From NCBI RefSeq assembly GCF_000151665.1, contig NW_013171818.1, positions 495,308-559,307 on the forward strand: 64,000 nt of DNA. Direction: 5' to 3'. Under the pieces are notes generated by a model that was given only the letters and a program-made list of their open reading frames with translations, was not told the origin of the DNA and did no database searches. Position numbers and translations under genes: made by a program. Below, in pieces: positions 6,817 to 41,699 of the stretch. This DNA is from Blastocystis hominis (Eukaryota; Sar; Bigyra; Opalinata; Blastocystidae). The first letter of the stretch is position 1; the number at the start of each line of letters is the position of its first letter.

Positions 6817-8416
6817 ATGTTCTCTCATCTAAAAGCGAAGAATATCGTAATTCTGCAATTCGTTTCTTGTGTTCACTGCAGTTAACAGCATTGAAGCAAT
6901 TAAGAGCCTATGCACCTAAAATAATCTCTTTACTCTTAAACCGAAAGGTATTAACCTCAGCAAAGCAACGAAATGAACTACTCGAGGTTATTTGCGATTT
7001 TCTAAAACTATTCAAAGACGATCTGTCGATTATCGAAACTCTTTTGCGTTCTCTGGATGGATTAAATGGTGTTTTGAAAGAGAACGAGTTGCTCACTCTC
7101 TTGACGACTTTGTTGTTTTGGAGTGAATCGATTTTGTGTACTTACATTCAAGCCATCATTTCGATGATCGATTCCTACTCCCCGTTCATAAACCGGAATA
7201 AATGGATCGATTTAAAGAACAGATTGTATTCGATAGAACTCCGAGCACATCAAACAAAACAGCCCTTTGAAGAATACGAAGAAGTTCGATCCCGACTCGA
7301 ATCGTCTTTTGATCACTCCGATTCCTCGTTTTCTTTCTCTCATTCTCGGCTGAGTAATGAAAACTCTCGACTCAGCAATGAAAACTCTCGACTCAGCAAT
7401 GAAAACTCTCGACTCAGCAATGAAAACTCTCGATTTCTAAACGAAAATTCGATCCTAAGCAACAAAAGCAGTCAGCAAACCAACGAAATCTCGCGAATCA
7501 GCAACGAGAATTCGAGCTTTACCAACGAACACAATCGAATTGGAAACGAAAACTCTCAACTTGGAGTGGATCGAAATCGCTACAGCGGCGAACCTTCCTT
7601 CGTGGGGAGCGAACCCACTCAATCGAGCAGTGGAAAACCGCGGAAACGTGCGAGAATGGAAGAACCCAGTTATGGTCCAATCGTTTTTCTTTTCTTGTTT
7701 TTGTTTTTTTCTCTTTTTCTTGTTGCTTTCGTTTCGTGGAAGGCTCCGAAACGGTCGGTTCCCGTTTCGACCGAAGACGTTTACGTTTCTCCGAATTTCG
7801 ATGAATGGGCGCAGCCCTCGCATTCCGAAATTCCGGAAATCGGCCTGTTTTTCACAGAGACGCAAAGCCAACAAGAAGCAGAAGAGGTCGATGAGACCCC
7901 CACGAAACCCCCACCCCCAATAAACGAATTCAGTGAATTTATTAAACCCGATCATTCATCCACAACGCGGATTCGAGAGGAAGCCGATGCATTCATCATC
8001 GAGGAAATCTCCGAATCCGAATCTCCTGCCTCCTCCACATCATCCCATGGATCCCATGGAAACAGTGGAAACAGTGGAAACAGTGGAAACAGTGTGGGCA
8101 GCGAAACACATGAGGACTTTGTGGAAATATCGTTTGCGTCCGATGGACTGTCGTTCAACGTGCTTTTGCTCACGCTTTTGTGTGTGATTTGTACGAACTT
8201 TGAAGCATGGATTCATGTGTAGTTTTCTATGCGTGTTGGAAGGGATGTCAAAAACCATCAGACTCTCCGGACTTGTATTCCACGCCCGTGAAACGAAGGG
8301 ATTATTTGCAAGCAGAATCGATTCTGCAATGTCCGGATTCGATTGATGTGGGCGGTAGGAGGCAAAGGAAACAAGACTTTTCGAGTGTTCTCCCAAATCG
8401 ACAACGTAGATTTTAA
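6817..8416 (+). CDS. Two-span membrane protein with SNENSRL repeats, 510 aa, unknown function
   Basis: Three exons: introns 6847-6881 (35 nt, ends CAG) and 8191-8222 (32 nt). The ATG at 6817 is chosen because splicing its 10-codon exon keeps the frame; the first ATG in the main exon is absent. The N-terminal 150 residues are helical and leucine-rich. Then comes a low-complexity repeat of SNENSRL units (7347-7560), a first membrane segment at about residues 276-296, an acidic Ser/Glu/Pro-rich part, a GNS repeat, and a second membrane segment at about 437-458 formed across the second splice. A basic tail of 50 residues follows, ending in TAA. Such a topology would suit an ER or nuclear-envelope protein, but I do not recognise a family. 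It converges on the phosphatase gene, with interleaved poly(A) motifs. Confidence 0.6.
7347..7560 (+). repeat. 21-bp coding tandem repeat (SNENSRL)
   Basis: Four near-identical 21-bp units encode SNENSRL, followed by about eight diverged units that still keep the N/E/S pattern. All are in frame with the host gene. The gradient from perfect to degenerate suggests recent expansion at the 5' end. Confidence 0.85.
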
Positions 8417-8437
8417 CAAACAAGTGTACTGTTTGTT
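8415..8437. terminator. Interleaved pair of TGTTTGTT poly(A) motifs for convergent genes
   Basis: AACAAACA at 8415-8422 is the octamer on the minus strand; TGTTTGTT at 8430-8437 is the same motif on the plus strand. Each lies just past the end of the gene read in that direction. In Blastocystis this octamer sits about 5 nt downstream of the poly(A) site. On the minus strand that puts cleavage after base 8428, leaving CAG-T, which becomes TAA with poly(A). On the plus strand cleavage would fall near 8424, after an encoded TAA. Confidence 0.7.
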
Positions 8438-8972
8438 TTGTAAATATGAAACCAACTCGGAAGCAGAATCGGCCGCCATCTGATAAATCTCTTCAAAACA
8501 CGCTTTCTGATCTGCAAATCGATACAACAAACCAATGTTACCTCGAGCATAGTAAGCATCCGGTACTTCCTTTCCGTGTTGCCCGGGAATAAAATCAGCG
8601 AGCATTTTCAGTTCAGCCTTTCCTTTCGGATTCAAACTCTTTTTCATATACTCCAAATCCTCCATGTTTGAACTACGGCTCACAAAACCCAAATTCATCG
8701 TACTAATCCATGCCAATAATCAAATCGTAGTTATCAAAATCAGCAGCTTTCACTTGGCGAGCACGATGCTTGGAAATGTCAATTCCGTGTCCTTTCGCAC
8801 ATTTCTGACCTCCACTATGCGGATGCTCTCCAACATGATATGTACTCGTTGCAGCCGAGTCCGCAAAGAAAGTAGGGGCTAAATGGTTCTGGGCAAAGTA
8901 GGAAACAAAGTACCCTTCCACCAGAGGTGACCTGCAAATGTTTCCCAAGCAAACAAACAAAACACCGGGCAT
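8428..8972 (-). CDS. Low-molecular-weight protein tyrosine phosphatase, 171 aa, stop made by polyadenylation
   Basis: Hydrolyses phosphotyrosine through a cysteinyl-phosphate intermediate. The signature CLGNICRS lies at residues 8-15 (nucleophile Cys8, Arg14), close to the N-terminus as in the family. The C-terminal acid motif is PDAYY, where most members have DPYY; the Asp is present. One intron, 8673-8703 (31 nt), splits IGMDY-SNMEDL, a family-conserved block. The coding frame reaches CAA AAC AAA CAG T at 8428 and then meets the minus-strand octamer exactly 5 nt later; without poly(A) addition the frame would read on for tens of codons antisense to the neighbour. With it the length matches the family (about 160 aa). 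It starts 33 nt after the SRP receptor gene. Confidence 0.9.
8952..8959 (-). promoter_or_regulatory. TGTTTGTT octamer inside LMW-PTP codons 5-8
   Basis: The octamer occurs on the transcribed strand 47 nt after the SRP receptor beta stop, but within the codons for LFVC of the phosphatase active-site loop. It is the only copy near that stop, so it may serve as the 3'-end signal of the upstream gene. It could equally be a chance result of the codons for Leu-Phe-Val-Cys. Confidence 0.35.
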
Positions 8973-9005
8973 AAAGTAAAAAAAGTTTAAACTAGACTCT
9001 GCGAA

Positions 9006-9868
9006 TTAAACACATGCGCCAATAAACTCCAAAAAGATCCTCAGATTATTCATTAGCACGCTACAATTCATCGAATAGACCGTACAAGGGGCATATTTCT
9101 TAAAGGTGTACTTCTCATCGCCTCGAAGCTTCCCAACCTCTCGCTCAATCGCATCGTAAACATCCGTATTGAATTTGCAATTCTTCAAATCGCTCTTGTT
9201 CACAGCCAACAGCACAGGAGCGGGATTTTCAATGAATTGCGGATTGGTGAATAGAGTGTTCAAAAAATTCGCAGCATCGACTTCATTCACATTCGTTCCA
9301 TCGATCAAATAAATAATACAAACCGCAAACGAGAGATCGAGGGTTGCTTGATTGGAGGGAGCCAAATATTCTTCAAAAAGAATGTGGAGAAGCTTCATTT
9401 CTTTGTCTGTGTTGGTTTCCAAAGCGATATCGCACTGCCGCACAGAAGAGAGTTCCTGAACTTCACTGTTATGGGCTGCGGCAATCTACAGAACATGGAC
9501 TATACAGAGCAAAACAAACATTATTCATGAGCAACGTTCTTCCACTTCCCTTATCCCCAACCAAGACGGCTTTGGGTCGAAGTTTACTCCTTCGATCCTT
9601 TGCTTTCTCGATAAAGAAGAGGATTACTATACAAAAAACAGCCAGATTATCTACGTACAAAGAAACATGGTAAAACAAATGATATAGAGAAGTGAAATAA
9701 CGGAAATATATAAGATGGAAGATGCCTGATTCTACCGATCGCTTCCATAGCGCGAAAGCCTACATGGGTCACATGAAGTTTCCTCTGGATGAAGAGAGTC
9801 GAAGAATCAAAAGCCTTGAAGGCCCACGAGGGAACCAGGTCCATGAGCAGATCCAAATTGCGTGCCAT
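9006..9868 (-). CDS. Signal recognition particle receptor, beta subunit, 254 aa
   Basis: Membrane-anchored small GTPase of the ER that holds SRP receptor alpha for co-translational targeting. Four exons with introns 9732-9763 (32 nt), 9627-9658 (32 nt) and 9486-9519 (34 nt); the sum is in frame. Exon 2 encodes the single membrane span (about residues 40-64), missed if introns are ignored. The P-loop GDKGSGRT is at about 83-90, then the NKSD motif that reads guanine; the DxxG segment is weak, as is common in this subunit. ATG at 9868 lies 24 nt after the stop of the GT49 gene and directly after its octamer. The P-loop intron begins with GTTTGTT. Confidence 0.87.
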
Positions 9869-9871
9869 TCC

Positions 9872-9879
9872 AACAAACA
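9872..9879 (-). terminator. TGTTTGTT motif of the GT49 gene
   Basis: The octamer lies 13 nt after the encoded TAA (9893-9895) of the glycosyltransferase gene and 3 nt before the next start codon at 9868. Cleavage 5 nt upstream would give a 3' untranslated region of fewer than 10 nt. Confidence 0.6.
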
Positions 9880-9892
9880 GTAAAAAACTGGA

Positions 9893-12068
9893 TTACCACT
9901 TATAAAACTTTCTTGGATATTCACAACACACTCGAGTTGGTTTCACACTCCTATAATTCGTATTCAGCTCCCTCTGGAACTGACTATACACATTCCGCAT
10001 GTCACTTTTATCTCCCTTCAAACTGCTCAAATAATTCGTCCTAAACTTCGAATCCGGGTGCGGCAAATCCATCGCGAACGCGTTCGCCGCGATATAGAAC
10101 CGGTACCCCGCGGCTCTCAAGTGCTCGAACAGCTGCACCTTGTTGTACCCGTAATTCACAAACCGCTCGTCGAACAGCGGCGTCGTCGGCGCGTACCGCA
10201 GCAGCACGTACGGCTCTTGGAAGTCCGTGAGGAAGCAGCGCACCTGCACGAACGGGATATCCGCGGGGATGGTGAACCAATCGGGAAGGACGTAGAGCTA
10301 CGCGTGAGGCGATTCCCGCGGGAGTACGTGTGTGCGGATGCCGGGCTTGGAGGAGAGACAGGCCTTGGCGTAGAGACAGGCCTCGAGCGCGGTTTTGTTG
10401 GAAGGAAGGTGCTCGAGAGCGAGGAGAGCGCAGTCGTAGAAGGACTTGCAGCGATTGAGGACTTGCTTGCGGTCGAAGAAGAAGACAGGGAGGATGGCGG
10501 CGACGCGGCCGTCGCGGAGCGAGGGCGGGAGACGAAGCAGCTCGCGGTAGGTGTTGGGAGAGGGCCAGAGATCCATGTCGAGGACTTGGAAGTGCGTGGT
10601 GCGGATGTTGCGGATCGCGAGGTTGCGGAGAAGATTCACGGGGAAGAACCCGCGCTGCGGCATTAAATAGAGCAGCGTGGTGAGACGGGCGGGCAGGAAG
10701 TGCGTGTTGAGATAGTCGATGAACGCTTTCTCCTCGCTCACCACTCCGTTGAACACAATCACCAGCGGACTAGCCAATCAGATCCTCCAAAACATCCACA
10801 CCCTTCCCACCGGTATAACAGCTGCGTCAGCACCGTCAGACGGTCCCGCGTCGTCACGCACACTCCCGTCACGTCGAACGGCGCGTCTTCCGCGGGAAAC
10901 CGGTCTATCTCTCACGCACTCCCCGCGGTTCTACAGAACGTGGAGTTGTAGATGGTGAATTCCTCGCGGTTCCCCGCGAATTTCCGCAGAATCAGCGCCG
11001 ACCCGCCGCTCACGCGCAGCTCGAAGGGCGTTTCGACTTTGCAGCCGTCGCAGCGCGCCGGAGAATCGGCGGAGCGCCGCACGAAGCGGCGGAGAAGCCG
11101 GGAGCGGCGCTTGGTGTCTTCGCGGTAGCGCCGGTTCATCTCGCGACTGAGCTTCGCGTTGATGCTTTTGCGGTAGTGGGACTGGGCAGTGCCCGAGAGA
11201 GCGTTGAGCGTTTCCCACTGCTTGGCGGAGATGATTCCCGCGGTAGGGTTCTCCTGGAGGTACGCGGAGAAGTTCTGGTAGAAGGGGAGCAGTGGCTTGA
11301 AGTCGCTGGCGAGGCTGCGTAGCGTCTGGCGCTCGCCGTCGATCATGCGCTTGCGCGCGCTCCAGAGCTGGCCGTCGCTGACGTGGTCCCGCGGGTAGTA
11401 GGTCTCGTTGTCGCTGGCGTACTTGGCGAGCTTGACGTAGCGGTTGGTGAAGCGGAAGCGCTTGCTGAAGCGGGAGAGGGCGATGTCGCGCACTTCGGGG
11501 ACGGATTTGGAGAGCGCGGTTTGCTCTTCGAGCGTGTCGAAGGAGGAGTCTTCGAGGGCGGAGCTGTCGGGAACGGAGGAAGGAGAAGGAGAAGGGGAAG
11601 AGGAGGGAGGAAGGTTGGTGTTGAGTGTTTGTTTGACACGTTTGTTGGATTCTTGAAGCGGTTTGGTGAGATGGAGGGGTTCTTCTTTGGTGGAAGCATG
11701 GAGGATGGCTTGGGATTTTTCTTCTTTTTCTTCTTCTTCTTCGTCGTCGTCTCCTTTTTCTTCGGTGTTCTGATCTACAATTTGCGAATCTTCGGACTCT
11801 TCAGATTGAACGACAACCGATTCTTCATTCATGGAATCTGCAGATTGCGATGAAACCAAAGAAGAAGCTTCAGAAGAAGCTTCAGAAGCGACAGAATCAC
11901 GAGTGAATGCCTCTGTGAACGTCGACAAGGAAAGGATAGAATTAATGGTCGAATGAGGTACTTGAGAAGGAGAAACCACAGAACGTTCTTCTCGGAGTTC
12001 CGAGTGTTGGATAGAGAAGAGAGAAGACTAGGGAATACAACATCGAAAACACATACACGTCCTTGCAT
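9893..12068 (-). CDS. GT49 (LARGE/B4GAT1-type) glycosyltransferase, 684 aa
   Basis: Family members add GlcA or Xyl to glycans in the Golgi from UDP-sugars. Five exons; introns 12028-12056 (29 nt), 10905-10934 (30), 10770-10801 (32) and 10298-10327 (30). Splicing restores the family's opening block (DVT...RDRL...L..RWEGP), then FFPVNLLRNLAI, the metal-binding VLDMDLWP (DMD near residue 467), and the C-terminal EPYVLLRY...DERFVNYGYNK and NAFAMDLPH. The first 350 residues are Ser/Glu-rich and not conserved. No membrane anchor is seen, unusual for a Golgi enzyme, so the start at 12068 or a missed 5' exon is uncertain. The fourth intron ends ACGCGTAG, as do three Brr2 introns. GC content rises sharply within this gene. 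Confidence 0.85.
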
Positions 12069-12305
12069 AGAGAAATGATGTAAAGTGACAATATTTGAAC
12101 TGAATATCTCTCTACATGAAACCACAATCCAAACCAAACAATTGGAAAAACAACACACACAAAACCAAAACGATGGTTATCAAAAGGCCCCTCTCAAGTA
12201 ACTGCATCGTTATGGAAATCGAGAACCCCAGGGAGAAAAAAAGTGACAATTTGCAGAAAACGCTTATCCCTCAGCATTCAAGCGCAATTCTGCTTTTGTT
12301 TTTAG

Positions 12306-15300
12306 TCAACAAACAATCCACTTTGTCTCCACTACATCGAATTCGATCTCCTGCTCCTGATCACACCCAATATACGCGTCCGTCATGAAATACAGCATCC
12401 ACGAATAGTGTCCCGGCTTCTCCGGCGCTGTGAACGCCAGCTGCTTGCTTCGGCTTCGCTCCAGGTCCACTTCCACGATGGACTGAATGGAGCTGTCCGT
12501 GGGATCCCCCAAAATCAACCACCAGGTCTGCCGCAGCTTCTGCGGGTAGTTCTCGCTACGCACCTCGGTGCTATAAGTCTCTCCCTCCTCCCCTGCATTG
12601 AGCTGCACGTTTAGCACCGCGTCCTGTCCGCAGCAGACCTCGCCTCCCTCCAAGGCTGCATTGACCTCGATGTCGGGATACGCGTCGCAGAACTGCACGA
12701 CGTCTTCGATTTCGCGCTCGCTGAGGCCCTCCAGCAGCTTGGCGCGCGCTGCGTCCTCCATGTCGAGGAAGTCGAAGATGCTGCTGACTCCCTCGCCGTC
12801 GAACGCAGCGGCGCGGTCTTTATCGAAGTGGGGCAGCTGCAGCAGTCGCGAGTCCTCGTTCCACTGCCCCTGCACGACCATCTGGCAGAGTTCGATGGCG
12901 GCGATCGCCGGCTTGAGCCACGTGTTCGTCGAGCACACGTTCACCATGCCCTGCGTGTCATTCTGCTTCGGCGAACCCACGTGGAGGAGGCGCACGGCGG
13001 TGGGGAGCAGCTGCAGCGTGTCGCGGCGCAGGTCGCTGGGGAGCGCGTCGCGGTTGAAGAAGCTCTGCAGCAGCACGTTGACCTTGCGGGACACGGGCGT
13101 GGAGTTCTCGACGACGTACTGCAGGTGGTTCGCCATGCGCTGGAGAAGCAGAGACTCGTGCTGCCGCAGCGGGAGCTACGCGTTATCGCGGAGAGAGAGG
13201 ATGAAAAAAACCTCTTCGAACTCCTCGGCGGAGGAGAGAATCTGCAGGAGCCCGCGGCGTTTGGTTTTGGCGGTGATGGAGAGCGAGAAGAGCTTCGTGG
13301 TCTGCACGCGGATGTAGAGATGCGCGCTCAGCACGCCCAGATTCAGCGGCTCCAAGGCCTGCTCGTCGATGGCCACCGCGCCCGCGTCCTGGAGGTCGGT
13401 GGCGGTGTTCTCGATGAGCGTGGAGAGGAAGTCGCTGAGCTGCGCGTCGCTGACGCCGTCGAGCGAGTAGAAATTGGGGTTCTGCGGGAGCCGGCGATAG
13501 AAGAAGAACCAGGTGAGCCACTCGATGGCGTCCTGCATGGAGGCGACGGTGTGGCTGGTCACGGCGGCGTTGAGCACGTCGGCGAGGTGCAGATGGAGCG
13601 TGCTCTCGACGGGGAGCGGCTCGAAGAGGAACTTGTTGAGGTAGTCCTTCTTGGAGATGTGCGTCATCACCACCGCCTTCCCGCTCGCGTATTTGCCGCC
13701 ACGCGAAGCAAACCCGATCATTTCGAGGAGATCCACGATGGGATAGTCCACGTAGCGGTGATCCTTGCCATCGTAGAAGCACGTGTCTAGCCGTAAAGCG
13801 TCCGTCGCATCGCTACCCATCACGATCACCAGCTGCGCGCTCCAGTCCAACTCCCAGCACAGCTCCGCGGTCGCCACCAGCACTTGAATGAAGTCGCGAG
13901 AGAACAACTCGCGCACCAGCCGAGCGTCCTCCTCGTTCATGCCCTACCTCTCACTCCGTTTCCACGTTTCCACTTTGTAGAAGAAGGCGACGCCCGCCGC
14001 GAGGACGGTCTTCAGCGCGGGGTCGACGACGCGGCTGAGCACTTCGTCCATCTGGTCCTGCGGAATGTGGTTGAATCGGCGCGGCTTCGACGTCGCGGAG
14101 ACGAACGTGAGGATGTCGATCGCGGTCATCTGCGCCTGCTTGCGCGAGGGAACGAACACCAGCGCCGCGTGGCCGCCCGAGAGCGCGGTGAGCGTGGAGT
14201 AGACGGGCTTGCTCATCGCGAGGAGGCGCGTGCCCGCGTGGTTGATGTCGAATCCCTGCACGCGGACCTGCACCGGATTCACCTTCACCGAGGAGTGGAA
14301 GCTGAAGAGCCCCTTGTCCACGTTCAGCCAGCCCGCCAGCGAGCGCGCGTTCGCCAGGCAGGCAGAGAGCGCGACGAAGCGGAACTGGATCGCGAAGCGG
14401 CTCTTGGGATCGGCTTTGGCCTGGGCTTCGAGGGCGCGGAGACGCGAGAGAACGGATTCTAAGAGATAGCCTTGCGCGCTGCCGATCATGTGGAGATGCT
14501 CCACGACCACCAATTTGATTTGCTAGCCATCAGCAACCCGCCTCTCTCTAAACCTACTTGGATCAGCTTCAAATGCGAGCCCGTGCACGTGTACGCGTCC
14601 ATGTGTTCCGGCAGCGACACAATCACATCGCACGTGCTCAGAGTCCGCGAATCTTCCTTCGGCTCGCCGATCATCTGCCCCACGCTCTTCCCTAACGGCC
14701 GCATCATCTCCGTCCATCGCTGCACATGGCGGTCGCACACCGCCTTGATCGGACACAGAACCAGCGCCTTCCCTCCGGGCTGCGTCGCGAACAGGCGGAA
14801 CATCGCCAGCTCCCCCACGACGCCCTTCCCGCTGCCGCTTCGTGCCGCCAGAAGCACGTTGGCGTCGCTCTCGTAGACCGTGCGGAGCACCTGCGTCTGG
14901 ATGGGGTTGAACACCGTCAGCGTGGACGCCAGCGCGGCTTCGAAGGCGGGGTTGTGCAGAGCCGAGAGCGGAGCGGGCTGCAGGTCGAGCAGCTCCGTGT
15001 GGGGCGGGAATTTCTCGGGGAGGATCAGCGAACGGAAGGAAATGAGGTGCGTGGTCTCGGCTTGGAGCCAGGTGTCGCTGATAATGCGGAGGAAGTACTG
15101 CGGAGGCATGGGGTCGAAGAGCGGGACGGTGAAGTTGACGTACTGCACTTCCTCGGCGTACTTGGCTTTGAGGAGCCAGTACTGATAGTAGAGAATCTTC
15201 TCGCCGTCGCCGTCCTCCACGATCAGATGGAAGCCTTGCGAGGAGCCGTGCACCGCCGGATCGTAGTTGAAATCGGCGTGCAGCGCCAGCTCCACCGACA

Positions 15301-18300
15301 GCATCGATCGCGTGATCGGGAGAATGATGGCTTCGGCTTGCAGACGCGGGATTTGGTGGATCATCCGCTCCAATTTCTTGCCGATATTTCGAACCTGCTC
15401 GCCCTTTCCGGACACCAGCTCCTCCAAATCGCCCGCGCTCATCTCGAAGTACCGGTCAAACGCGATGGGCTTGTTGTCCAGCTTCTTCAGCACGGAGGCG
15501 GGGAGCTTGTTGAACTACGCGTCACCATGCTTTTTCGATCGCTACTTGATGCAGCGGCGACTGCGTAGCCCACTGCTGGTGCGAGACCATCTTGCACAGC
15601 TCCAAGCAGCGCTGCGCGAGCGACGACCAGCCGCGCAGCAAAGCGATTTCGAAGAGTGCGCGCAGGATTCGCCCCGCGGACTACGATGGATCGGGTTTTT
15701 ATGGTTTGTCTGCCTACCTGTGTGATGTACACCATGTCGCACGCCAAGGCGAACTTCTCGAGCTTCACGTGGGAGATGTAGGCTTGCAGCAGCACGTTCA
15801 CTTTGGCGCAGGGATCGTCCACCGTCTCGCGGATCGGGATCGGGACCTTGTTCATCAGCATGTTCAGCTCGAGCTTCTCTTCGGGCCGAACGACGATCTG
15901 GCTGAACTCCGCGGAGCGGCTGAACAGATTGAACAGCTCGATCTCGGTCATGTTGGGCTTGAGATGCTCGTTGTAGGTCGCGACGGAAGGGTTGGTGATG
16001 TAGTAATAGGACGCGATGCGACCCAGTCCGGTGGATTCGAACAAACCCGCCTTCACGTCGTACTTGATCAGTGCGTTCTTGGCGAGAAGACTCGCCGCAC
16101 TGTGGATCAGATCCACGCGATACTGCAGCAAGGTGGGGTCATCGCGAAGCGAGGTCGCATCCACGCCGTACAGCGCGGGATTCTTCAGCATTCGGACGAA
16201 GAGGTACGTGTATCCGAGCCATGAGACCGCGTCGGCGACGTTCTGGATGGTTCCCATGACGATCTCCGCGTTCAGATTGTCCGCCAACCGCTTGATGAAC
16301 TGCGACTCGATCGGCAGCTGCGCGTTCATCAGCGAGAGATAGTACTGCAGCTCGGAGATCCGCGTGATGATGATGCCCTCGCCGAACGACTCGAACTGCG
16401 GGCGTCCGGCGCGCCCCAGCATCTGCAGAACGTCCTGCGGCGAGAGCTCGACCCACGCGGACTGCTCGGGCGAGTACATCTGCGTGCCCTTGATGATGAC
16501 CGTGTGCGCGGGCAGGTTCACGCCCCACGCCAGCGTCATCGTGGAGACCAGCACGCGGATGAAGCCCGCGGCGAAGAGCTCCTCGACCGCGGTTCGGTCC
16601 GCTCGGCAGAGTCCCGCGTGGTGGATCGCGAAGCCGGTGGGCAGCAGACGCTTCAGATCGTCGTTCTTGATCGAGTACTTCTTGACCTCGTCCTCCAGCT
16701 TCTTCCGCGCCATCTCGGACGGGAAGAACAAGTGGTGCTGGTCCTTCTCGACCGCGGTGTCCAGCAGGAACTGCGCGGTGCGCGCGGTTTCCTTCCGGCT
16801 GTGCACGAACACCAGCACCTGCTTCTTCCCCGCCTTCTCGATCACCTTCTCGTAGCAGATCTCGTTCATCAGCTTCATCCGCTTGAACGAGCTCTTCTCC
16901 TTGATCCCCACGAACTGCTGCGCCAGACCCACCGGACGGAAGCTGCTGTCGAAGTGGAACAGTCCCTTCGCGGGGTCCACGCGCAAAAAAGTCGCCACGT
17001 CCTCGAAGTTCGGGAGCGTCGCCGACAGTCCGACCAGTCGCACCATTTCCTGCGTCACCTCCACTTGGCGCACCGTTCGCGCGACCAGAGCTTCCAGAAC
17101 GGGGCCTCGATCGTCGTGCAGCAAGTGGATCTCGTCCAGAATGATCAGACGGACCAGCTGCGTGTAGGTCCGATCGCCGCTCTTCCGCGTGATGATGTCC
17201 CACTTCTCGGGCGTGGTGATGATGAGCTGCGTCGACGCGATCTACTTCGAATTCTCGCCCAGCACTCACTTCTTCCTTCGTCAAATTCACGTCGCCCGAC
17301 AGCTCGCGCACGGCGATATTGTACGGCTTCAGCTTCTACATCGCATCGCATCGCACGGCTTCGCCTACGCGTCCGAAACTATCCACCATCTCCTTCACCA
17401 GCGCTTTCATCGGCGCCACGTACACGATCTTGAACTTATCGCGGTCCACGCTCCCGTCTTCCCGCCGATGCAGCCACATCTCGTGCAGAATCGTCATCAG
17501 CGCCACGTTCGTCTTCCCAGCGCCCGTCGGCGCGCACAGCAGCATGTTCTCCTACGCGTCACGCCCCTGTCCGACGCACACCGAGCTCAGCATGGCGCAC
17601 TCGTACACCTCGCTCTGCACCAGATTCAGCTTGGAAACGCCCTCGAACCCGGGCCGGAACCACTCGGGCATTTCCTCCACGCTCACCAAGTGATGGCTGC
17701 TCAGATACTCCGCGTCGCCGTACTTGTTCGCCGCCGCGGGCACGTGGATCTCCTCCCAGCCGGGCTTCAGCACGCGGTTCGTCCCCTCCGGCAGGTGCAG
17801 CGCGTTCTTGCTCATCAAATGCCCGCCCGCCGCGAACTCCAGGCTGCGCAGATCCAGCTGCGCCCTCGGCTTCGGCACCGCGAGCTCCTGGCTCAGCGCC
17901 AGGCGCTCTTCCTCGCGCAGCGCCTCCTCGTCCGCCTTCTCGCTGTGCGCCTTCGGGCGGGGCGTTGCGCGCGTCGTGGCCAGCGAGTCGCCGCCGGAGC
18001 GCCACGCGCGCGTGGCCTGGCCGCCCTCCAATCGCTTGAGAATGGCGGAGCCGTTGAGAGAGGCGTCGCTGAGCAGTTCCTGGGCGATGGCCTCGCGCTC
18101 GGCGTCGCTGGAGGCGCGTCGCCAGCGCGTGACGAAGGCGATTTTGCCGCGGTTGGCGAGGAGCTGCTGGATGAGCGCGGCGTGCTCGACGCCGATGCAC
18201 TCGACCAGACGATCCTCGTCGCCGCGCTCGTCGCTGCTCTGCAGAATCGACAGCACTTCCTCCGCGATGTGCTGCGACTTCTCCGCGTCCGGCTCGTACT

Positions 18301-31839: not shown

Positions 31840-33259
31840 CATATGTTCTATAAGAAGATAACATGTTAATTGCACAAATAGTCACTGCTTGTAAATAAAC
31901 AGCACGGCCATGAATAAACTATCAAATCAATATTAAGAAATACTATCAATTAAAAACTGAAAGTATGTAAATAGGATAATAAACAAGCATATTGATGTGT
32001 TGATAATAGAATCAATATCGAAAGTCATAGCTTCACTTAGACAAAATAAGAAAAATGGATAATACATTTATGAACGAAACATACACCATTATATAGTTCA
32101 GCATTATAAAAAATATGGATTATCTGATCACAGTCATAAATTCACTTTGAGAAACATAACTCCACCTCACTGGGCAAGTAAAAATAAAATCATCTTTATC
32201 TGAAAGAATGAATATTAGACATGGATGATTCAGATTCTCTCATTCCAATATTACATAGCAGGGTTAATGAATATTATTCATCATCTTATTTGTAAAGGCC
32301 ATAATCTTCAAGAAATATGGATTGTATGATATGATATAGGGTTTTTCATCATTCGAATTCATTCACATATTATCGAGTAGTATTATCTCAATGATCCTCC
32401 ATAAATTGCTTTGAATTCTCTTTTTTAAATTATCGAGTTCATTTAAAGTATGTAATCTTGATGTGGAAAAACGTGGATAGACGTATATTTTCAGATAGTA
32501 AACATAATTAGGACTAGCCACATTTATTTGTGAATTAAAATGAATTCGATGGGTGTTTGGTGTAGTGCGTTCTTTGATGTGATTAACAGGAATCGGCTTA
32601 TATTTTAGATGGCATTCAGAAAAAAGTATTATATATATATATAAATCGATGCGGTTCGTAATGATTGTAAAACTGTAACTACATTTTCTTGATGTGTGCT
32701 AAAACGGTTTTAAAATGTCTAGATGTGATATTATTGGACTAAACCCAACCAATCAAATCATTATTATTTGTATGAATATGTACAGAACGGAAACCGATTA
32801 TTATCGATATCAGAAAATACTTCAAAATGTGTATAATCGAATATCAATTCGCTATACTATTGTATTTTGTGATATATACATTAACAGATTCTGTACTAAT
32901 AATCAATTACAATCAAGAATGAAAATAAAAAACGTCAAAGTATTGATGTAATCATAGTAGAGTATCTGAATAGTATTGATAGTATAAGCTCTAATATGAA
33001 TGATAGAAAAATGTCTACCTATTCCAATATGACTACATATCTGAGTGTTGAGTCTCACACAATTTATTCGTAAATCCTTCATTCCATTAATCATATATAT
33101 ATATATATAGAATTACGATATGTGATAAAAAGAGGATAAAGAAAGTTGAACTGAAATACATTTTTCGATTTGAATTGTCCTATATTAATCGTAATAGACT
33201 ATCAACCTAATCCATTAATTTGAATACCAACACATACATGCAATCAAACCAAATCTAGG
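31840..33259. other. AT-rich intergenic region
   Basis: About 1.4 kb without a gene I can support. Includes (TA)n runs at 32630-32643 and 33095-33108. The frame 32715-32951 is AT-biased and has no relative in the window. Confidence 0.35.
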
Positions 33260-34222
33260 TGACATATTAATTTGTTTATCTGTATCACATTTAGTCTTTC
33301 AAATCAATTATTCCATATTCATTTTGCGATTTCATTTACATTCCATTAGAAATTATCATCATCATCATCATAATCATAGTCATCGTCATAATCATCATAA
33401 TGATGTAGAAATGTGTTATCTTATTCATTTACATTATTAACACATTTATCAACATTATGATTATCAATCATTATGTTTTCATATTTTTCATTTTCATTAT
33501 TATTGTCATACTATTAGAATTATCACTAGTTTCGATTCAGAATCAATATTGATTCGATCCAATATTATCTTCTTTTCAAACATATCTTCAATTTAGATAC
33601 AATTTTGTCTGTATGATTTGATTAGTGTAAAGAATCAACATTCTATATAGTATATATGTTGTATTCTATTTCTTATTCATCAAAATACTATGATAATTGT
33701 ATTGTTTGTACATTCATTGACACATGAACTTATGGTTATCATCATTGTTATCATCATTGTTATCATCATTGTTATCATCATAACTATTATGATAATCATT
33801 TGATCGATAAATTGTAATAGTAATATGGAATTTACTATTACGATGTGAATCATTTGTATCATTGATAGTTCTAGTAGTAACAAAATACCAATATTGTCTC
33901 AATTCATATATTACTATTTCATTATCTTCATATTTAGCTAATTTCGTTATACTTTGATTCCTCAATCATATATTCTTATTATCGTATTCGAATTTCATAA
34001 ATGTATATATATATATATATGTCAATGATTCCATGTGTTAGAACTAATATGGATCGATGGAATCGATGACACAAGATTATCTTGTCATATTCTTATTGTC
34101 TTATGTTTCCATATTGCCAAATTGCTGATTGTGATGTAGATATTATGTATTATAAGTACAATCGTAATTTTCATGAAATCTTTGATATATATATATATAT
34201 AAGAGTGTCCAATATCAATTCT
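33260..34222 (+). repeat. Repeat copy 1 of a 0.95-kb element found three times
   Basis: Nearly identical to 45021-45972 (same strand) and to 38155-39107 (opposite strand). It begins near GACATATT and ends abruptly at CCAATATCAATTCT, after which copies 1 and 3 differ. It contains (ATC)n/(GAT)n and (TA)n runs of different lengths in each copy. A short frame on the minus strand (33714-33965; KLAKYEDNEIVIYELRQYW) is kept in all three copies, but nothing shows it is a protein. Confidence 0.85.
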
Positions 34223-34740
34223 CAAACTATATATTGTTATACATGTAAGTGTCAACCATATCTTATCAAACTAGTCATTAATTTAACATAATTACAACTT
34301 CATTTTATTTATTGTACAACACACACAGCACCAACAATATAGAGTAAAACTATATTAGCAGTGGATTCAGGAAAAGAGCATGAATGATTAGATTCATCTA
34401 ATTATTCACACTATGCTTATTCTTGAAAGTAGTCCAACAAATATGCATGAAGGAGAAGTAACATATATTATTGTATTGCACATATTATTTATTACAACCG
34501 GTATTTGTATTAGTTGTTACTGCTTGTTATGTTTTGTATTTATTTTACTGTATCAAATTGTTTGTTATTGAATGCTTCATAAATAATCTTACATAGTACT
34601 TGCATCATTTTACATCTTAATATATAAATAAGTGAAACAACAATATTAGAATGGAAATAATTTACATTAAGAAGAACCAATAGATACAAAACCAGCCATA
34701 TGAATTATTGTAAAAAACAATAACCTGGTATAACGATGTT
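34223..34740. other. AT-rich region outside the left arm
   Basis: About 0.5 kb, no feature recognised. Confidence 0.35.
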
Positions 34741-34752
34741 AACTCATTCTTA

Positions 34753-36422
34753 TCAGAGTATTCTGTCGTTTTCAGGTGGTTTTGATTCGGTAGGAACAGA
34801 GTTTCCAGTTGTGGTGTGTTCCTCTGAAGAACCTATAATTCTGGCCCCCTCTTCTATTGTATTAGAAACAGCAGCTTCTTCTTCGACCGACTTTTCGACT
34901 TTCATTTCGGGCAGCTCAATCGACTTCGATTCGTCTTTGTATGTTGACTGTTTACCAATGATTCTAGCATTCGGCCAAGTACTCACATATGCCATAATGC
35001 AAAGGCCAATCAACGCAAAAATAGATGAAAAATAGTATATAGCTTCTTTGCTGTAAGGATAGATAGCAGCCAGTACTAAAGGAGAAATGATGAGGGAAGA
35101 AGAATAGCTTAAGTTATTCCAAGAAAGAACTGTTCCTTGAGTTTCAGGATTGGTTGTGGTCTATGTGTTATACCTACATCCACAATCTATCTACCGTGAG
35201 AATTGACGCAGAAGTAGGAGTACCAAAGCAGTAGCCAAGCCACAAAATATAGGTAGCTGTAACATTTCCATATACATTGTTGATTGCTCCCATACCAATG
35301 TAGGATACAAACTGAATAACCATTCCTGTCACTGCCAATTTAGGAATGCTCACATACTGAGCAATCCAAGGATAAAAGAATGCATGAAGCACAAAACAAA
35401 ATGCACCCTGAGTAAAGACGATGGTACTATAAATCACATATCAAAAGTACTCCTTACGAATAGGTGATCGAGTTAACGCCCCACTTATCAGTGAGATAAA
35501 TACCATATCGGGAATCAAAAGCATTAAGTGATTACCTAATACATAATTCGTAAATGAAACAAAGAGCCATCGTGGATGTGACTCTCACTTTGGCCTTTGG
35601 TTTTGGCTGATCTTCTTTTTCTTCTTCCTGTCTACCTTGCTCTTGTTGTTCATCGACCTTCGTTTCAACTTTGGCATCCGTTTCTATGTCTCCTTTTCTT
35701 ACTTCCCCGTTTATCACTTCATTCTTCTTCGCTTTCTTCGCTTTCAATTCTCACTGTTTCAGAACCTTAGGATTTGATTCTTCCAAAAAGATCATGGCCA
35801 CGATCATGGCAATACCAGAAACACCCCCAGCAACATACATCGGGAAATGATTGTTCACCTGAGCCAAAACACCACCAATACCTGGCCCGACAATGTATGC
35901 AAAGGAAATGCAAGCATCTAAACGAGATAGGTATTTGTTTCGATCTTCGGCAGTCGTAACATCGGCAACAACTCTAAAATTCACAATACAAACTCTCTTG
36001 TACGATTGAACCAAAATTTGGGATCCTGCAAACAGTCCAGTGAATGCTCGCCAGAATATGAGTGGCCACATTGCATACGACATTCCTTGAAACAGAGAAC
36101 CTATTCCCTCATATTGTCACTCTATTTCTACCAAAACACGATCCAAACAATGATAATAATAAGAAAGGCCTTCTTCCATAAATATCACTACCCGGACCCA
36201 TGATCAATAAACCTAAATGATATATATCTATTACTGTATAATACTAATAAGTTGCATGACAGAATACGCACTAAATAACAAACCTTCTTGCATAGGAGTA
36301 GAATTGAGCTCCTTGACTAGAAACGGTAGAATGGGCACAATGAGTGCATAGTTCATCATGTCAAAAAAGACCGTTATGAACGCTAGAACTAGTATAGTTT
36401 TTTCTCTCCTGGTAATTGTCAT
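34753..36422 (-). pseudogene. Dead copy of a major-facilitator transporter (left arm)
   Basis: Homologous over its full length to the intact gene at 48300-49903, with the same intron places (for example the one ending before GLLIMGPGSDIYGRR). Two codons are broken relative to the intact copy: AGA has become TGA at 35751-35753 (after NPKVLKQ), and TGG has become TAA at 35532-35534 (after YELCIR). No frameshift is evident and the exon ends are kept, so inactivation looks recent. The 3' part has an extra acidic segment of about 20 residues before the common ending PPENDR. Confidence 0.75.
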
Positions 36423-37474
36423 AGTAATGATTCAGACCTATAGGTAGACTCCCGATAGCAAAAATAAATAAACAAAGCTCTTGGAATTGGAAATAATGGC
36501 CTTTCCTCAAAAATAATTTATTGTGTTTATTCATTTGGTGTGACCCGAATTTTTGTATCCCCTATTTATTGTGCCATAACCCTATTTATGATTCGTGGTT
36601 TACTTTGAGGTAAACAAACAACACAGGTTGTCTTTAAACGTTTCTGTCATTTGTTTCGTATTTATGTATTGCGATTAAGTTGAACACGGAATTTAGATAG
36701 CTTTCGTCTATACCAAAACTACGAACGCCAAGGACTATACTTATAGGAATTATTATTCTTTGTAGTACTGGTTTACCATATTTATCAAACCATATGCTTT
36801 ATAAATAACTTCCAGTTGGGACGATATCTTTGGTGAGCTTGAGAATAAATACTTAGTGTAAATAAAATAGGAAGTATATTTCAAACAATAGAAAAGAATA
36901 AAGATTCCTATGATTGATGATCTCGATGGTGTCAAGAATGTAAATAACATAATATTTCAATACTACTACAAACATTAATCGGAATTGCTGCGATAAGATT
37001 TGGGATTCCTAATCCTCGGTGAAATGTTTTTTTGTGAATGTGTGGCTTGCAAATATTTATATATTTGAGTTATTTAAGCAGAAATAAGTTAAATACAAAA
37101 ATCTTATGCTCACATAAAGGCAAACAATCAATTCCTTGATTATACTAAAATCTGGATTATGCTTATACTTACTAGTTATGAAATACTATTTGCACAACGA
37201 TCACATATTTTAGGCGAAGAATACTGCGAAATGTGACATGCACGCACTTTTTTTCTAGTTCACGTTGATTTTGCCTAATTCAAGGTAAATACTCTCATCC
37301 CTCAAATTTCCGTGCCTTCTATAGAACACCAGAATACAATTGTGAGTAATAATGCCATATTTCTACAAAAACTATATAATCATAGCGTGGGTTGATGAAA
37401 TAAGAATCAGTATATTCTAATTATTATGATTCATGACTAGTTCTAAATATGAATTCTTATCGTTTAAAGTATTA

Positions 37475-38143
37475 CTAATAATGATATCGAGCTTCAGCTA
37501 GACAGAATCGTCCAAAATTAGTAATGACAATTTTGAAATCAAACAAGTCTCTATAGGAATTGGAAAATTCACTTTCAGATCTCGTTTGGAAAAACCAAAT
37601 GTTGATCATATTCTCTTTAGATTGTGAAAGTGATAATACTGAATAGATTGAGTGTTTTGAATGATAAGAATATGGTTGATAATGATACAATGTATTATAA
37701 AGAAAGGAATCATTCAAAGCAAATCACATTTCATATTGCTGATATAACTGTATTCACTAGGGATATCACAATGGAACAGTAAAGAAATGAGAAAAGAAAA
37801 ACGAAAGTGATAATAATTGTAATTTGAAGAATTGATAAACGATATGATGAATGGAGTAGTAAGTGTGACCATATTTGTTTTAGATAACATAAAGACATGG
37901 AATGTGGAACATTGAATGGTCGAAATGTAGAGATTATTGATATTGAATAAGAGGAAACCAAAATGAAAAATGAAAAATGAAAAATGAAAAATGAAAAATG
38001 AAAAATGTGTAATAATACAAGATTCGAAGAATAGCTACACTACATCCAAGAGTAGTAAAACACTTTTCTTTGCCAATATAATGATGATACCATTTCAATT
38101 GTTTTGTACTGTTAGTAAATGTATATCTCCATAATGAACTCAC
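37475..38143 (-). other. Conserved short frames in the arm, function unknown
   Basis: Three short minus-strand frames (37475-37717, 37731-37961, 37934-38143) are kept in the right arm (46166-46652 and 45984-46193, plus strand). The first ends FSNSYRDLFDFKIVITNFGRF. They are AT-rich, overlap, and one consists of an AAAAATG pentamer repeat (37963-38005). Conservation is explained by the recent duplication, so it does not prove coding. On the other strand a few LRR-like phrases (FEIKQVSIGIGKFTF) may be relics of LRR genes like those at the left edge. Confidence 0.3.
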
Positions 38144-38154
38144 AAATCATAGAA

Positions 38155-39107
38155 AGAATTGATATTGGACACTCTTATATATATATATATATATATCAAA
38201 GATTTCATGAAAATTACGATTGTACTTATAATACATAATATCTACATCACAATCAGCAATTTGGCAATATGGAAACATAAGACAATAAGAATATGACAAG
38301 ATAATCTTGTGTCATCGATTCCATCGATCCATATTAGTTCTAACACATGGAATCATTGACATATATATATATATATACATTTATGAAATTCGAATACGAT
38401 AATAAGAATATATGATTGAGGAATCAAAGTATAACGAAATTAGCTAAATATGAAGATAATGAAATAGTAATATATGAATTGAGACAATATTGGTATTTTG
38501 TTACTACTAGAACTATCAATGATACAAATGATTCACATCGTAATAGTAAATTCCATATTACTATTACAATTTATCGATCAAATGATGATCATAATAGTTA
38601 TGATGATAACAATGATGATAACAATGATGATAACCATAAGTTCATGTGTCAATGAATGTACAAACAATACAATTATCATAGTATTTTGATGAATAAGAAA
38701 TAGAATACAACATATATATTATATAGAATGTTGATTCTTTACACTAATCAAATCATACAGACAAAATTGTATCTAAATTGAAGATATGTTTGAAAAGAAG
38801 ATAATATTGGATCGAATCAATATTGATTCTGAATCGAAACTAGTGATAATTCTAATAGATGACAATAATAATGAAAATGAAAAATATGAAAACATAATGA
38901 TTGATAATCATAATGTTGATAAATGTGTTAATAATGTAAATGAATAAGATAACACATTTCTACATCATTATGATGATTATGACGATGACTATGATTATGA
39001 TGATGATGATGATAATTTCTAATGGAATGTAAATGAAATCGCAAAATGAATATGGAATAATTGATTTGAAAGACTAAATGTGATATAGATAAACAAATCA
39101 ATATGTC
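38155..39107 (-). repeat. Repeat copy 2 of the 0.95-kb element (within left arm)
   Basis: Inverted relative to copies 1 and 3. Compared with copy 1 it has one fewer GATAACAAT unit and a longer (TA)n run near 38180. Confidence 0.85.
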
Positions 39108-39331
39108 ATCATTCAAATTATCTATTGATGATGGAATTATATCGCATCTAGTTTTATAAGAAGTTGTGTATTATAATTCATATATCGATACTATGAAATG
39201 TTATCAATGATGTTTCATTCTTGTATATCACATGAAATCAATTGTAAACAATGATTCTATTCGAAATATGAGAGTATATGACAGATGTATTGTTCCAATA
39301 GAAGATAAGCAAACAAACAAACAAACAAATT

Positions 39332-39700
39332 ATTGACCTGCTGGAGGTTTTGAGCGGAATGTTCACTGCCTGTTACGTCACTACCTTACGACCTTGAACT
39401 TCTTCCCACTAGACGACCTCTGGGATTTGCTTGCTATCCCTTTATGCCACATACCATATAGAGTGGGTTGTTCATAGTAAGTGCTTTGCAAGAATCTTGC
39501 TACTTCCTCACAACCGACCAACTCATCTTCCTCACCAAAAGACATTCCACAACCAATACACAGTATCTACATTTTATCACAAGCCTTCATTTTTTCCTTC
39601 CTTCCTTCCTTCCTTTTTTTTCCTGTGTTCTAAATCGAAACATCCCTACCAAGGCTTTCCCAACCATGATATTCCATAGTCGATCCAATAAAAGATAAGA
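39332..39700 (-). mobile_element. Truncated 3' end of the non-LTR retrotransposon family
   Basis: Matches 53870-54200 in reverse, ending at the shared terminus CTCCTGCAGGTCAATAATTTG (read here as its complement), followed by a (CAAA)n tract at 39309-39330 that would be the element's 3' tail. It is 5'-truncated, as usual for LINE insertions. A TTCC microsatellite (39595-39615) interrupts it. It lies inside the left arm and is mirrored at 44397-44757. Confidence 0.6.
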
Positions 39701-39914
39701 ACCGATTTCATTACTGTTTCTAGATATGAGAGAAAATCAATCTATGAAAGAATGAAGTGAAGTATACTCATAGTTGTAAAATACAACTATATTTACAAAC
39801 ATATACATACATATATACATCGATATCGATTGTTGTTAAAACGAAAAGATAACTAGTATAAATACAAAATGTAAAGAACTGAATACTATGAATATTGAAA
39901 TGATCTATACACAC

Positions 39915-41699
39915 GTCTTATTTGTAACCATGTAAAATCGCATATTATCTAATTAGATATTATTATTTCTTTTATTGCGCCTAGAAATGATCCTATTATT
40001 ATTGTAATCATACAACCGTTTTGCTAATATCAATTAGCTAATTTACAAACATCTTCTATTTTGTTTTCCGTACTATAATTGGCTTTTTAGTTTTCTAAGA
40101 AAATTTCATTTATAATACAAATTATTCAAGTGTATTCATCAACAACAACAACGATATTAGAGTGTAGTGACTCAATAGAATTTCTTACCACTGATATAAT
40201 CTGGTCTCTTTTAGGGATCATAATTGATGAGATCATATCATATGCTTTTTAACTTTAAATACCATATACATAGTTTTCCTGTTATTTTCAGTACTATTGT
40301 TTGACATATTACTACTTACATTTCATGAATCAAAAGTCACAATATTTCAATCACGGTTATGATCTAACCTGTACATTTATATTCTTGAAATGCTAATCCT
40401 GAACTTGTTTAAGGGATATGATAATCCAATCAAGATAGCAATCCTTATATGATATTATATCTATGTTGTCACTGTCTTGATACAAGCGATAATATAACCG
40501 ATGGTAATCAACTTTATTGTTTCTATTTATGTAATATTGCTCTTGACTTTAACATAATCGTTTGAATCATCAAACCATTTCCAATCTATCTATTTCAGAT
40601 TCTATTCAGTGTATTAAAGAGTAAACATTTTCCCTGATTGCTGCTGAGCCATTTGGTCAGCATTATTGTCTATTGTAGTTTTACTGGGCTTTCTCTAGTA
40701 TCGCAACATTTTCCACAGGTCAATAGCGGCATTCTTCTGATTGTTTCACACTAATATTATCTCCTATTTTTGGTTTTCCATTACATTGTTCTATCAACCT
40801 TATGACACATATGCTCTAAAATACTATAACATCTTGGTCGTCATAATATTACTTATTCTGTTTTACTTTCTTCTACTGTCAATGGCCTTATTTATCATCC
40901 TCTCTTTCCCTATGGTATTACACCCCTCTATCATATATTTAATTCTCCATTAAATCATGCTCTTTTCTCTCACCCTTTTCATAATTACATGACCATCTTT
41001 TCGTTTCTTTGGCACTATTTTTACTTTTGACTAGTCTGGTCATCTCATCAAAATTCACGATTATGACCTTTACTGTTTTTTCGTTTACTAATGTCCATTC
41101 TCCTTTACTTTATTTTTGCATCATATTTCTTCTATCATAAATATATTTATATAGACCTCGGTTTTTCCATTATGAAATTTAAATCACTTCCTGCTATACA
41201 ATAATCATGAAAAAAATCGAAATGTATATTTTATAGTGAACAGATGATTGTAAAAATGAGATTCCATTGGTGGACAGTCAATATGCGGTATTGGAGTTCC
41301 TAAAAAGAGGGTAATAGAGTGGCAATGGTGAAATGATGAAATAGAGTAATCGCAGTGCCTTTGAAACGACAGAATGTAGGTTGTACTTTCTAGTAGTCTT
41401 TCGGCTTACTTCATTTTAGTTTCTTTATGTGTAAAGTGTAAGAGAATCGTGTCTGTTTGACATGTTGCGCCTATTTTCGAAACGATAGAAAGAGATTGTC
41501 CTTAATTTATGTTTCTAATGGAGTTATTGGTCAAATTGTGTTTTTTTCATTATGACAAAGCAATTTTCTAACATCGCCTATTTATTTCACTCAAAGCGAA
41601 CCCTATTCTAGTTCGAACCCACATCGTTAAATAACAACAAATAATCAATTTCACAAATAAAATAGTATTAACCTCTGTAAGTTTATTCCTCATTTTATA
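39915..41699. other. Spacer of the inverted duplication, left part
   Basis: About 1.8 kb of AT-rich DNA present once. No gene is supported; a hydrophobic frame at 40741-40953 is low-complexity. Confidence 0.35.

Follow-up and report, generated by a model that had tools for sequence, protein, structure and literature searches.

A phosphatase gene of Blastocystis hominis predicted to gain its stop codon from the poly(A) tail, interlocked with the signal of a convergent neighbour

How does a protein-coding gene end when its reading frame runs past the last conserved codon without meeting a stop? We addressed this question in a low-molecular-weight protein tyrosine phosphatase (LMW-PTP) gene of Blastocystis hominis, which lies on the minus strand of a 64,000-nucleotide window (the whole stretch of DNA analysed; contig NW_013171818.1, positions 495,308 to 559,307). 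The initial annotation had proposed that the mature mRNA ends in CAG-U-AA, and our analysis supports this proposal. Judged from the sequence, the gene structure by homology, the position of an octamer signal and the comparison of endpoints among relatives, the stop codon of this gene is very probably completed to UAA by the poly(A) tail, right after the last conserved codon. The mechanism itself was already published in 2014, and this gene is a new instance of it. The added interest of the locus lies in its interlocked gene ends and in the palindromes found genome-wide.

The phosphatase gene extends from 8972 to 8429 and, in the structure assigned by homology, contains two short introns. Exon 1 (8704-8972) begins with the ATG at 8972-8970 and encodes the P-loop CLGNICRS. 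Intron 1 (8673-8703, 31 nt, GTACG...CGTAG) separates it from exon 2 (8542-8672); splicing converts MD-stop to MDYSNMEDL, and the flanks are matched in relatives, with MD on one side and SNMEDL, SNIEDL or SNVEDL on the other. Intron 2 (8512-8541, 30 nt, GTAAC...TGCAG) is in frame and free of stops. Reading through it yields ten residues, which are identical in the near-identical protein P0018 and different in P0028, P0121 and P0122, and in P0121 the length differs too. When both introns are spliced out, including the join to the last exon (8429-8511), the protein has 161 residues, with MPGVLFVCLGNICRSP at its start and SYLQNKQ at its end. The initial annotation had described a 171-aa enzyme of normal length; the figure is corrected to 161 because the 171-aa version retains the 30-base intron 2, while the normal length stands, the top-scoring relative in a protein search being a 160-aa protein of Blastocystis sp. 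DL with 62% identity. The 161-aa protein matched the Pfam family LMWPc (PF01451) with 114.3 bits (curated cut-off, 23.2) over residues 4-153, reaching position 143 of the 144 in the profile, and the 171-aa version scored lower, at 107.7 bits.

LMW-PTPs are characterised by a C-X5-R-S P-loop and a late general-acid Asp. In the predicted protein, these correspond to CLGNICRS and VPDAYY, which align with the CLGNICRS and IEDPYY motifs found in solved LMW-PTPs, for example 7kh8. Among solved structures, those nearest to it in sequence are LMW-PTPs, including the human enzymes 7kh8 and 3n8i. By these sequence features, the predicted product of 8972-8429 is a member of the LMW-PTP (PF01451) family. 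A search of the genome for phosphatase paralogues returned the gene's own two exon matches alone at E up to 0.001, and a search of viral contigs for the DNA of a relative found none. The gene is nuclear in character, with introns of about 30 nt, a relative in Blastocystis sp. DL and a location on a contig of 591,523 bases in an assembly of 18.7 Mb and 40 contigs.

At the 3' end, the letters of the minus strand run exactly as initially annotated: CAG at 8431-8429, T at 8428, ACACT at 8427-8423 and then the exact octamer TGTTTGTT at 8422-8415, which we assign as the downstream poly(A) signal of the phosphatase. The frame has no encoded stop at the end of the protein and remains open past the final Q and the octamer to a stop at 8260-8258. 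What stands directly behind the last codon is a partial stop codon, TA (8427-8428). Under a spacing of four bases, the end reads CAG-TA/CACT-TGTTTGTT (the slash marks the predicted cleavage after 8427), and TA is at the cleavage point; under a spacing of five bases, with cleavage after 8428, T is at that point. The products would be CAG-UA+A and CAG-U+AA, both of which give UAA and the same mRNA because base 8427 is an A, and spacings of three and six give no stop. The octamer is found 18 times on both strands of the window, compared with a mean of 3.0 (sd 1.9) in shuffled sequence, and none of 100 shuffles reached 18.

The main text of Klimes et al. 2014 reports 2,419 mapped poly(A) sites of subtype 7 (ST7), 2,333 of which (96%) are followed by the motif at a distance of exactly four bases when up to two substitutions are allowed (PMC4159000); the same spacing is given in PMC4360255, and the exact octamer at 8422-8415 conforms to it. 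Nuclear genes that gain UAA or UGA by polyadenylation, as the initial annotation had noted, amount to 372 of the 2,419 ST7 genes (359 UAA and 13 UGA; PMC4159000) and to 26% of ST1 genes (PMC4159000, PMC5608401). In ST7 cells, joint alteration of the motif and two upstream T's in the 3' untranslated region (UTR) of a reporter lowered expression 324-fold (PMC6395660). On the basis of these published data for cleavage, tail addition and termination, we consider that the 161-aa phosphatase gene would encode the first two stop bases, TA, and no more. Cleavage of the pre-mRNA after 8427, directed by the UGUUUGUU element from four bases further on, would leave UA, which the tail would extend to UAA with its first A, so that the mature phosphatase mRNA would have no 3' UTR.

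The octamer rule was also evaluated across this genome in a sample of 264 kb, made up of the window and a 200-kb block of C1. This sample contained 98 exact octamers, or about one per 2.7 kb, and the density in print for ST7 is about one per 2.8 kb (PMC5608401). After removal of tandem copies and of octamers within 300 bases of a start, 93 of the 98 were kept. At position -5 of these 93, T reached 58% and G fell to 9%. When we counted stops created behind at least 40 open codons, the spacing of four bases was the highest (17/93). Where the longest frame was open for at least 80 codons, 9 of 25 octamers created a stop at spacing 4, compared with 7.9% at random (p = 7e-5), and the other 16 did not.

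Relatives of the phosphatase allowed the endpoint to be compared. A search with exon 2 of the close relative P0028 returned six proteins, P0028 included, and these were compared as protein open reading frames (ORFs): the stop of P0028 was deduced from the end of its ORF, and back-translation was used to deduce the octamers in P0018, P0121 and P0122. The exon-2 ORF of P0028 ends at the same NKQ; of the 71 phosphatase residues that were compared between it and the window, 3 differ. P0018 and P0121 continue with YTCLLK like the window, which is compatible with the octamer. In P0121, 1 of 63 residues differs before the predicted end and 8 of 34 differ after it (Fisher p = 8e-4). The more distant P0122 has LKKQ followed by a different continuation, CCVCYF, which can encode the octamer at exactly four bases from a T that would become UAA. 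Such a fit at a fixed position was found in 91 of 254,189 random open five-codon stretches (0.036%), and at any of five neighbouring codon positions in 115 of 60,000 (0.19%); we consider the latter figure fairer because the position in P0122 was chosen by eye. P0123 and P0124 end short of the region and hence are silent on the endpoint. Taken together, the same final residue in P0028, the apparent octamer of P0122 itself and the drop of conservation in P0121 support the predicted endpoint.

Several observations weigh against a tail-made stop at this position, and some of them favour other ends of the gene. P0028 is known as a protein, and its end might be something other than an encoded stop. 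The predicted end of P0122 is one residue earlier than that of the window (LKKQ versus LQNKQ). In the genome sample, the peak at spacing 4 is modest, with 17 octamers compared with 5 to 13 at the other spacings from 0 to 12, the 13 being at spacing 0. In addition, the base at -5 of the phosphatase octamer is A rather than the commoner T, which here is found at -6. This last observation favours the placement in the initial annotation, with cleavage after 8428 and the octamer about five bases past it, considering that T is favoured at -5 in the genome. However, 96% of the mapped sites use four bases (PMC4159000), and we consider the five-base placement improbable. Because 8427 is an A, the mRNAs from the two placements are identical and cDNA reads could not separate them; the five-base placement is thus a variant of the tail-made stop, not an exclusive alternative to it.

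A quite different end would be the encoded stop at 8260-8258, whose use would yield a 217-aa phosphatase. The additional 56 residues (8258-8428) would form, as had been stated initially, a long tail antisense to the neighbouring gene, namely to its predicted last exon. The frame is indeed open, and the ORFs of P0018 and P0121 also continue beyond Q, the tail of P0018 differing at only 2 of 56 residues. P0018 is too closely related to the window to be of use here. In P0121, on the other hand, differences are concentrated in the tail, P0028 ends at the same Q and the continuation of P0122 is unrelated. Moreover, the longer mRNA would have to cross an exact octamer, and the motif lies at four bases from nearly all mapped ST7 poly(A) sites (PMC4159000). 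We judge that the 56 residues are not protein and that this end is very unlikely.

Equally doubtful is an extra intron at 8421-8390 (32 nt, GTTTGT...GGGAG) that would join T to AA and create an encoded stop after a 163-aa protein ending ...NKQYT. Its GT-AG ends and its length, typical of Blastocystis introns, count in its favour. Nevertheless, its donor lies inside the octamer and is unlike the other donors of the gene (GTACG and GTAAC), and its acceptor GGGAG is unlike CGTAG and TGCAG. Artificial introns leading to a hypothetical stop are described by Klimes et al. as a common annotation error in such genes (PMC4159000). A listing of possible introns with GT-AG ends, 25-45 nt long and with the donor between 8480 and 8401, gave eight, none of them a convincing route to an encoded stop.

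Apart from the phosphatase end itself, a second TGTTTGTT is present on the plus strand at 8430-8437, in the very stretch that the initial annotation described, where it went unmentioned. It is assigned to the convergent neighbour; this and the other assignments to neighbouring genes were made from sequence alone. It has T at -5, with predicted cleavage after 8425, and is the reverse complement of 8 of the 9 bases that encode N-K-Q, the final three residues of the phosphatase. A single base (8426) would separate the two predicted mRNA ends, 8425 on the plus strand and 8427 on the minus strand. The predicted last exon of the neighbour (8223-8416, plus strand, splicing inferred) has about 63 open codons and ends with TAA at 8414-8416, nine bases before its own predicted cleavage site; the last two bases of this TAA are overlapped by the phosphatase octamer. 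The exon is preceded by a predicted intron of 32 nt (8191-8222, GTACG...TGTAG), and the unspliced frame stops inside it at TAG 8220-8222, after IHV (WIHV in the window). A less favoured reading is that the neighbour ends at 8222 with a long 3' UTR and that 8191-8222 is not spliced; the ORFs of the relatives P0125 and P0126 also run into the intron and stop after the same IHV. The best octamer near 8222 has two mismatches. This lack of a good octamer there, together with the open frame of about 63 codons that leads to a TAA beside an exact octamer, favours splicing.

On the upstream side, an SRP receptor beta-like gene (9006-9443, minus strand) ends with an encoded TAA at 9008-9006, 33 bases before the phosphatase ATG. 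A further minus-strand TGTTTGTT with T at -5 is located at 8952-8959. It occupies codons 5-7 of the phosphatase, which encode LFV immediately ahead of the P-loop, and is the only exact octamer starting within 9010-8941. It is possibly the poly(A) signal of the SRP receptor beta-like gene, with predicted cleavage after 8964. In that case, the mRNA of this gene would overlap the start of the phosphatase.

Elsewhere in the window, on the minus strand at 12306-12330, a Brr2/SNRNP200-like helicase gene reads ...VETK-T/GGAT-TGTTTGTT, with the octamer at 12315-12308, four codons before an encoded stop. The helicase gene, too, appears to owe its final UAA to polyadenylation. The G+C content along the window, in 8-kb blocks, ranges from 30% (32001-40000) to 55% (8001-16000).

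The crossed arrangement at the phosphatase locus, AACAAACA-N0-30-TGTTTGTT, was considered as a genome-wide signal and rejected, with 10 places compared with 19 in a reversed control. At its spacing of 7, this locus is the only one in the genome and the control has two. Among the ten crossed loci, the phosphatase locus and L007 are the two at which both sides have a frame open for at least 40 codons that leads to a stop, either created or encoded within 40 bases. The uncrossed order gave a different result: TGTTTGTT-N0-30-AACAAACA was found at 81 places and at 3 in the reversed control, and TGTTTGTT-N0-3-AACAAACA at 49 places (G000; for example C1:323262-323277) and at none in the control. The uncrossed places are partly non-independent, since tandem TGTT runs contribute several N0-30 rows and C2:1839752 and C34:660634 have identical flanks. 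Of the 49 palindromes, 22 have T at -5 of both octamers and 9 have it at -7 of both.

We also analysed the 200-kb C1 block, which has one exact N0-3 pair, already seen before the block was chosen, and ten N0-3 pairs when one mismatch per octamer is allowed. At spacing 4, which had been set beforehand from the literature, 13 of the 20 pair sides would gain a stop from the tail after a frame open for at least 40 codons, compared with 61 of 384 other octamers (Fisher p = 2.7e-6), and 5 of the 10 pairs would do so on both sides. Spacing 3 gave 7 of 20 sides (Fisher p = 0.02) and both sides in one pair; spacings 2, 5, 6 and 7 gave 1 to 3 of 20 sides and no such pair. With spacers of 0-30 and one mismatch, the C1 block has 18 uncrossed places and 1 crossed place. 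In the window, the corresponding numbers are 2 and 3, and thus the window itself is without an uncrossed excess. At the palindrome C1:278368, the frame is open for 630 codons on one side and for 223 on the other.

With open frames judged by their length, the simplest reading of the uncrossed palindrome is a double poly(A) signal shared between convergent genes. Accordingly, we think it likely that convergent genes of Blastocystis often share one TGTTTGTT-N0-3-AACAAACA, that an encoded stop tends to be missing from both genes, each obtaining a tail-made UAA instead, and that their cleavage points are 24-27 bases apart. The window would then represent a crossed and tighter form, in which each signal is located inside the transcribed sequence of the other gene. 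In the search listings and main texts consulted, we found no mention of a Blastocystis poly(A) signal that is palindromic or shared between genes. Neither PMC5608401 nor PMC4159000 names, in its main text, a palindromic, inverted, convergent, tail-to-tail, bidirectional or opposite-strand arrangement, and the consulted text of PMC3129679 names no palindrome.

For annotation, gene finders that require an encoded stop would give the phosphatase a false tail of 56 residues, and this extension is present in P0018 and P0121, which come from a public protein set. More broadly, the pattern hints at the degree to which eukaryotic gene ends can be compressed: where the downstream signal is sharp, a gene may dispense with its 3' UTR and even with its stop codon, and two genes may use one short palindrome jointly. 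Because termination in such genes would depend on correct cleavage, palindrome pairs may be good objects for studying read-through and the control of antisense RNA.

In comparison with known systems, mammalian mitochondria and the mammalian PAY* isoforms are alike in that the tail supplies the A's of UAA. They differ in that the former concerns an organelle and the latter alternative isoforms of nuclear genes, and the main text of PMC4159000 mentions no TGTTTGTT-type element for them. The overlapping gene-model pairs of Blastocystis ST4 (PMC5608401) are closer, in that 3' ends overlap until the TGTTTGTT-directed stop is considered; they differ from the phosphatase locus in that the consulted passages of that paper describe no shared or paired octamers. 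The closest likeness is with the polyadenylation-created stops of Blastocystis (PMC4159000, PMC5608401), which share with the phosphatase gene a partial stop, an exact TGTTTGTT at the published spacing, a nuclear location, introns of about 30 nt and, as predicted here, the lack of a 3' UTR. The mechanism would be the same, and what distinguishes the phosphatase locus is that the signal of the neighbour is antisense in the last codons and that only a single base would separate the 3' ends predicted for the two genes.
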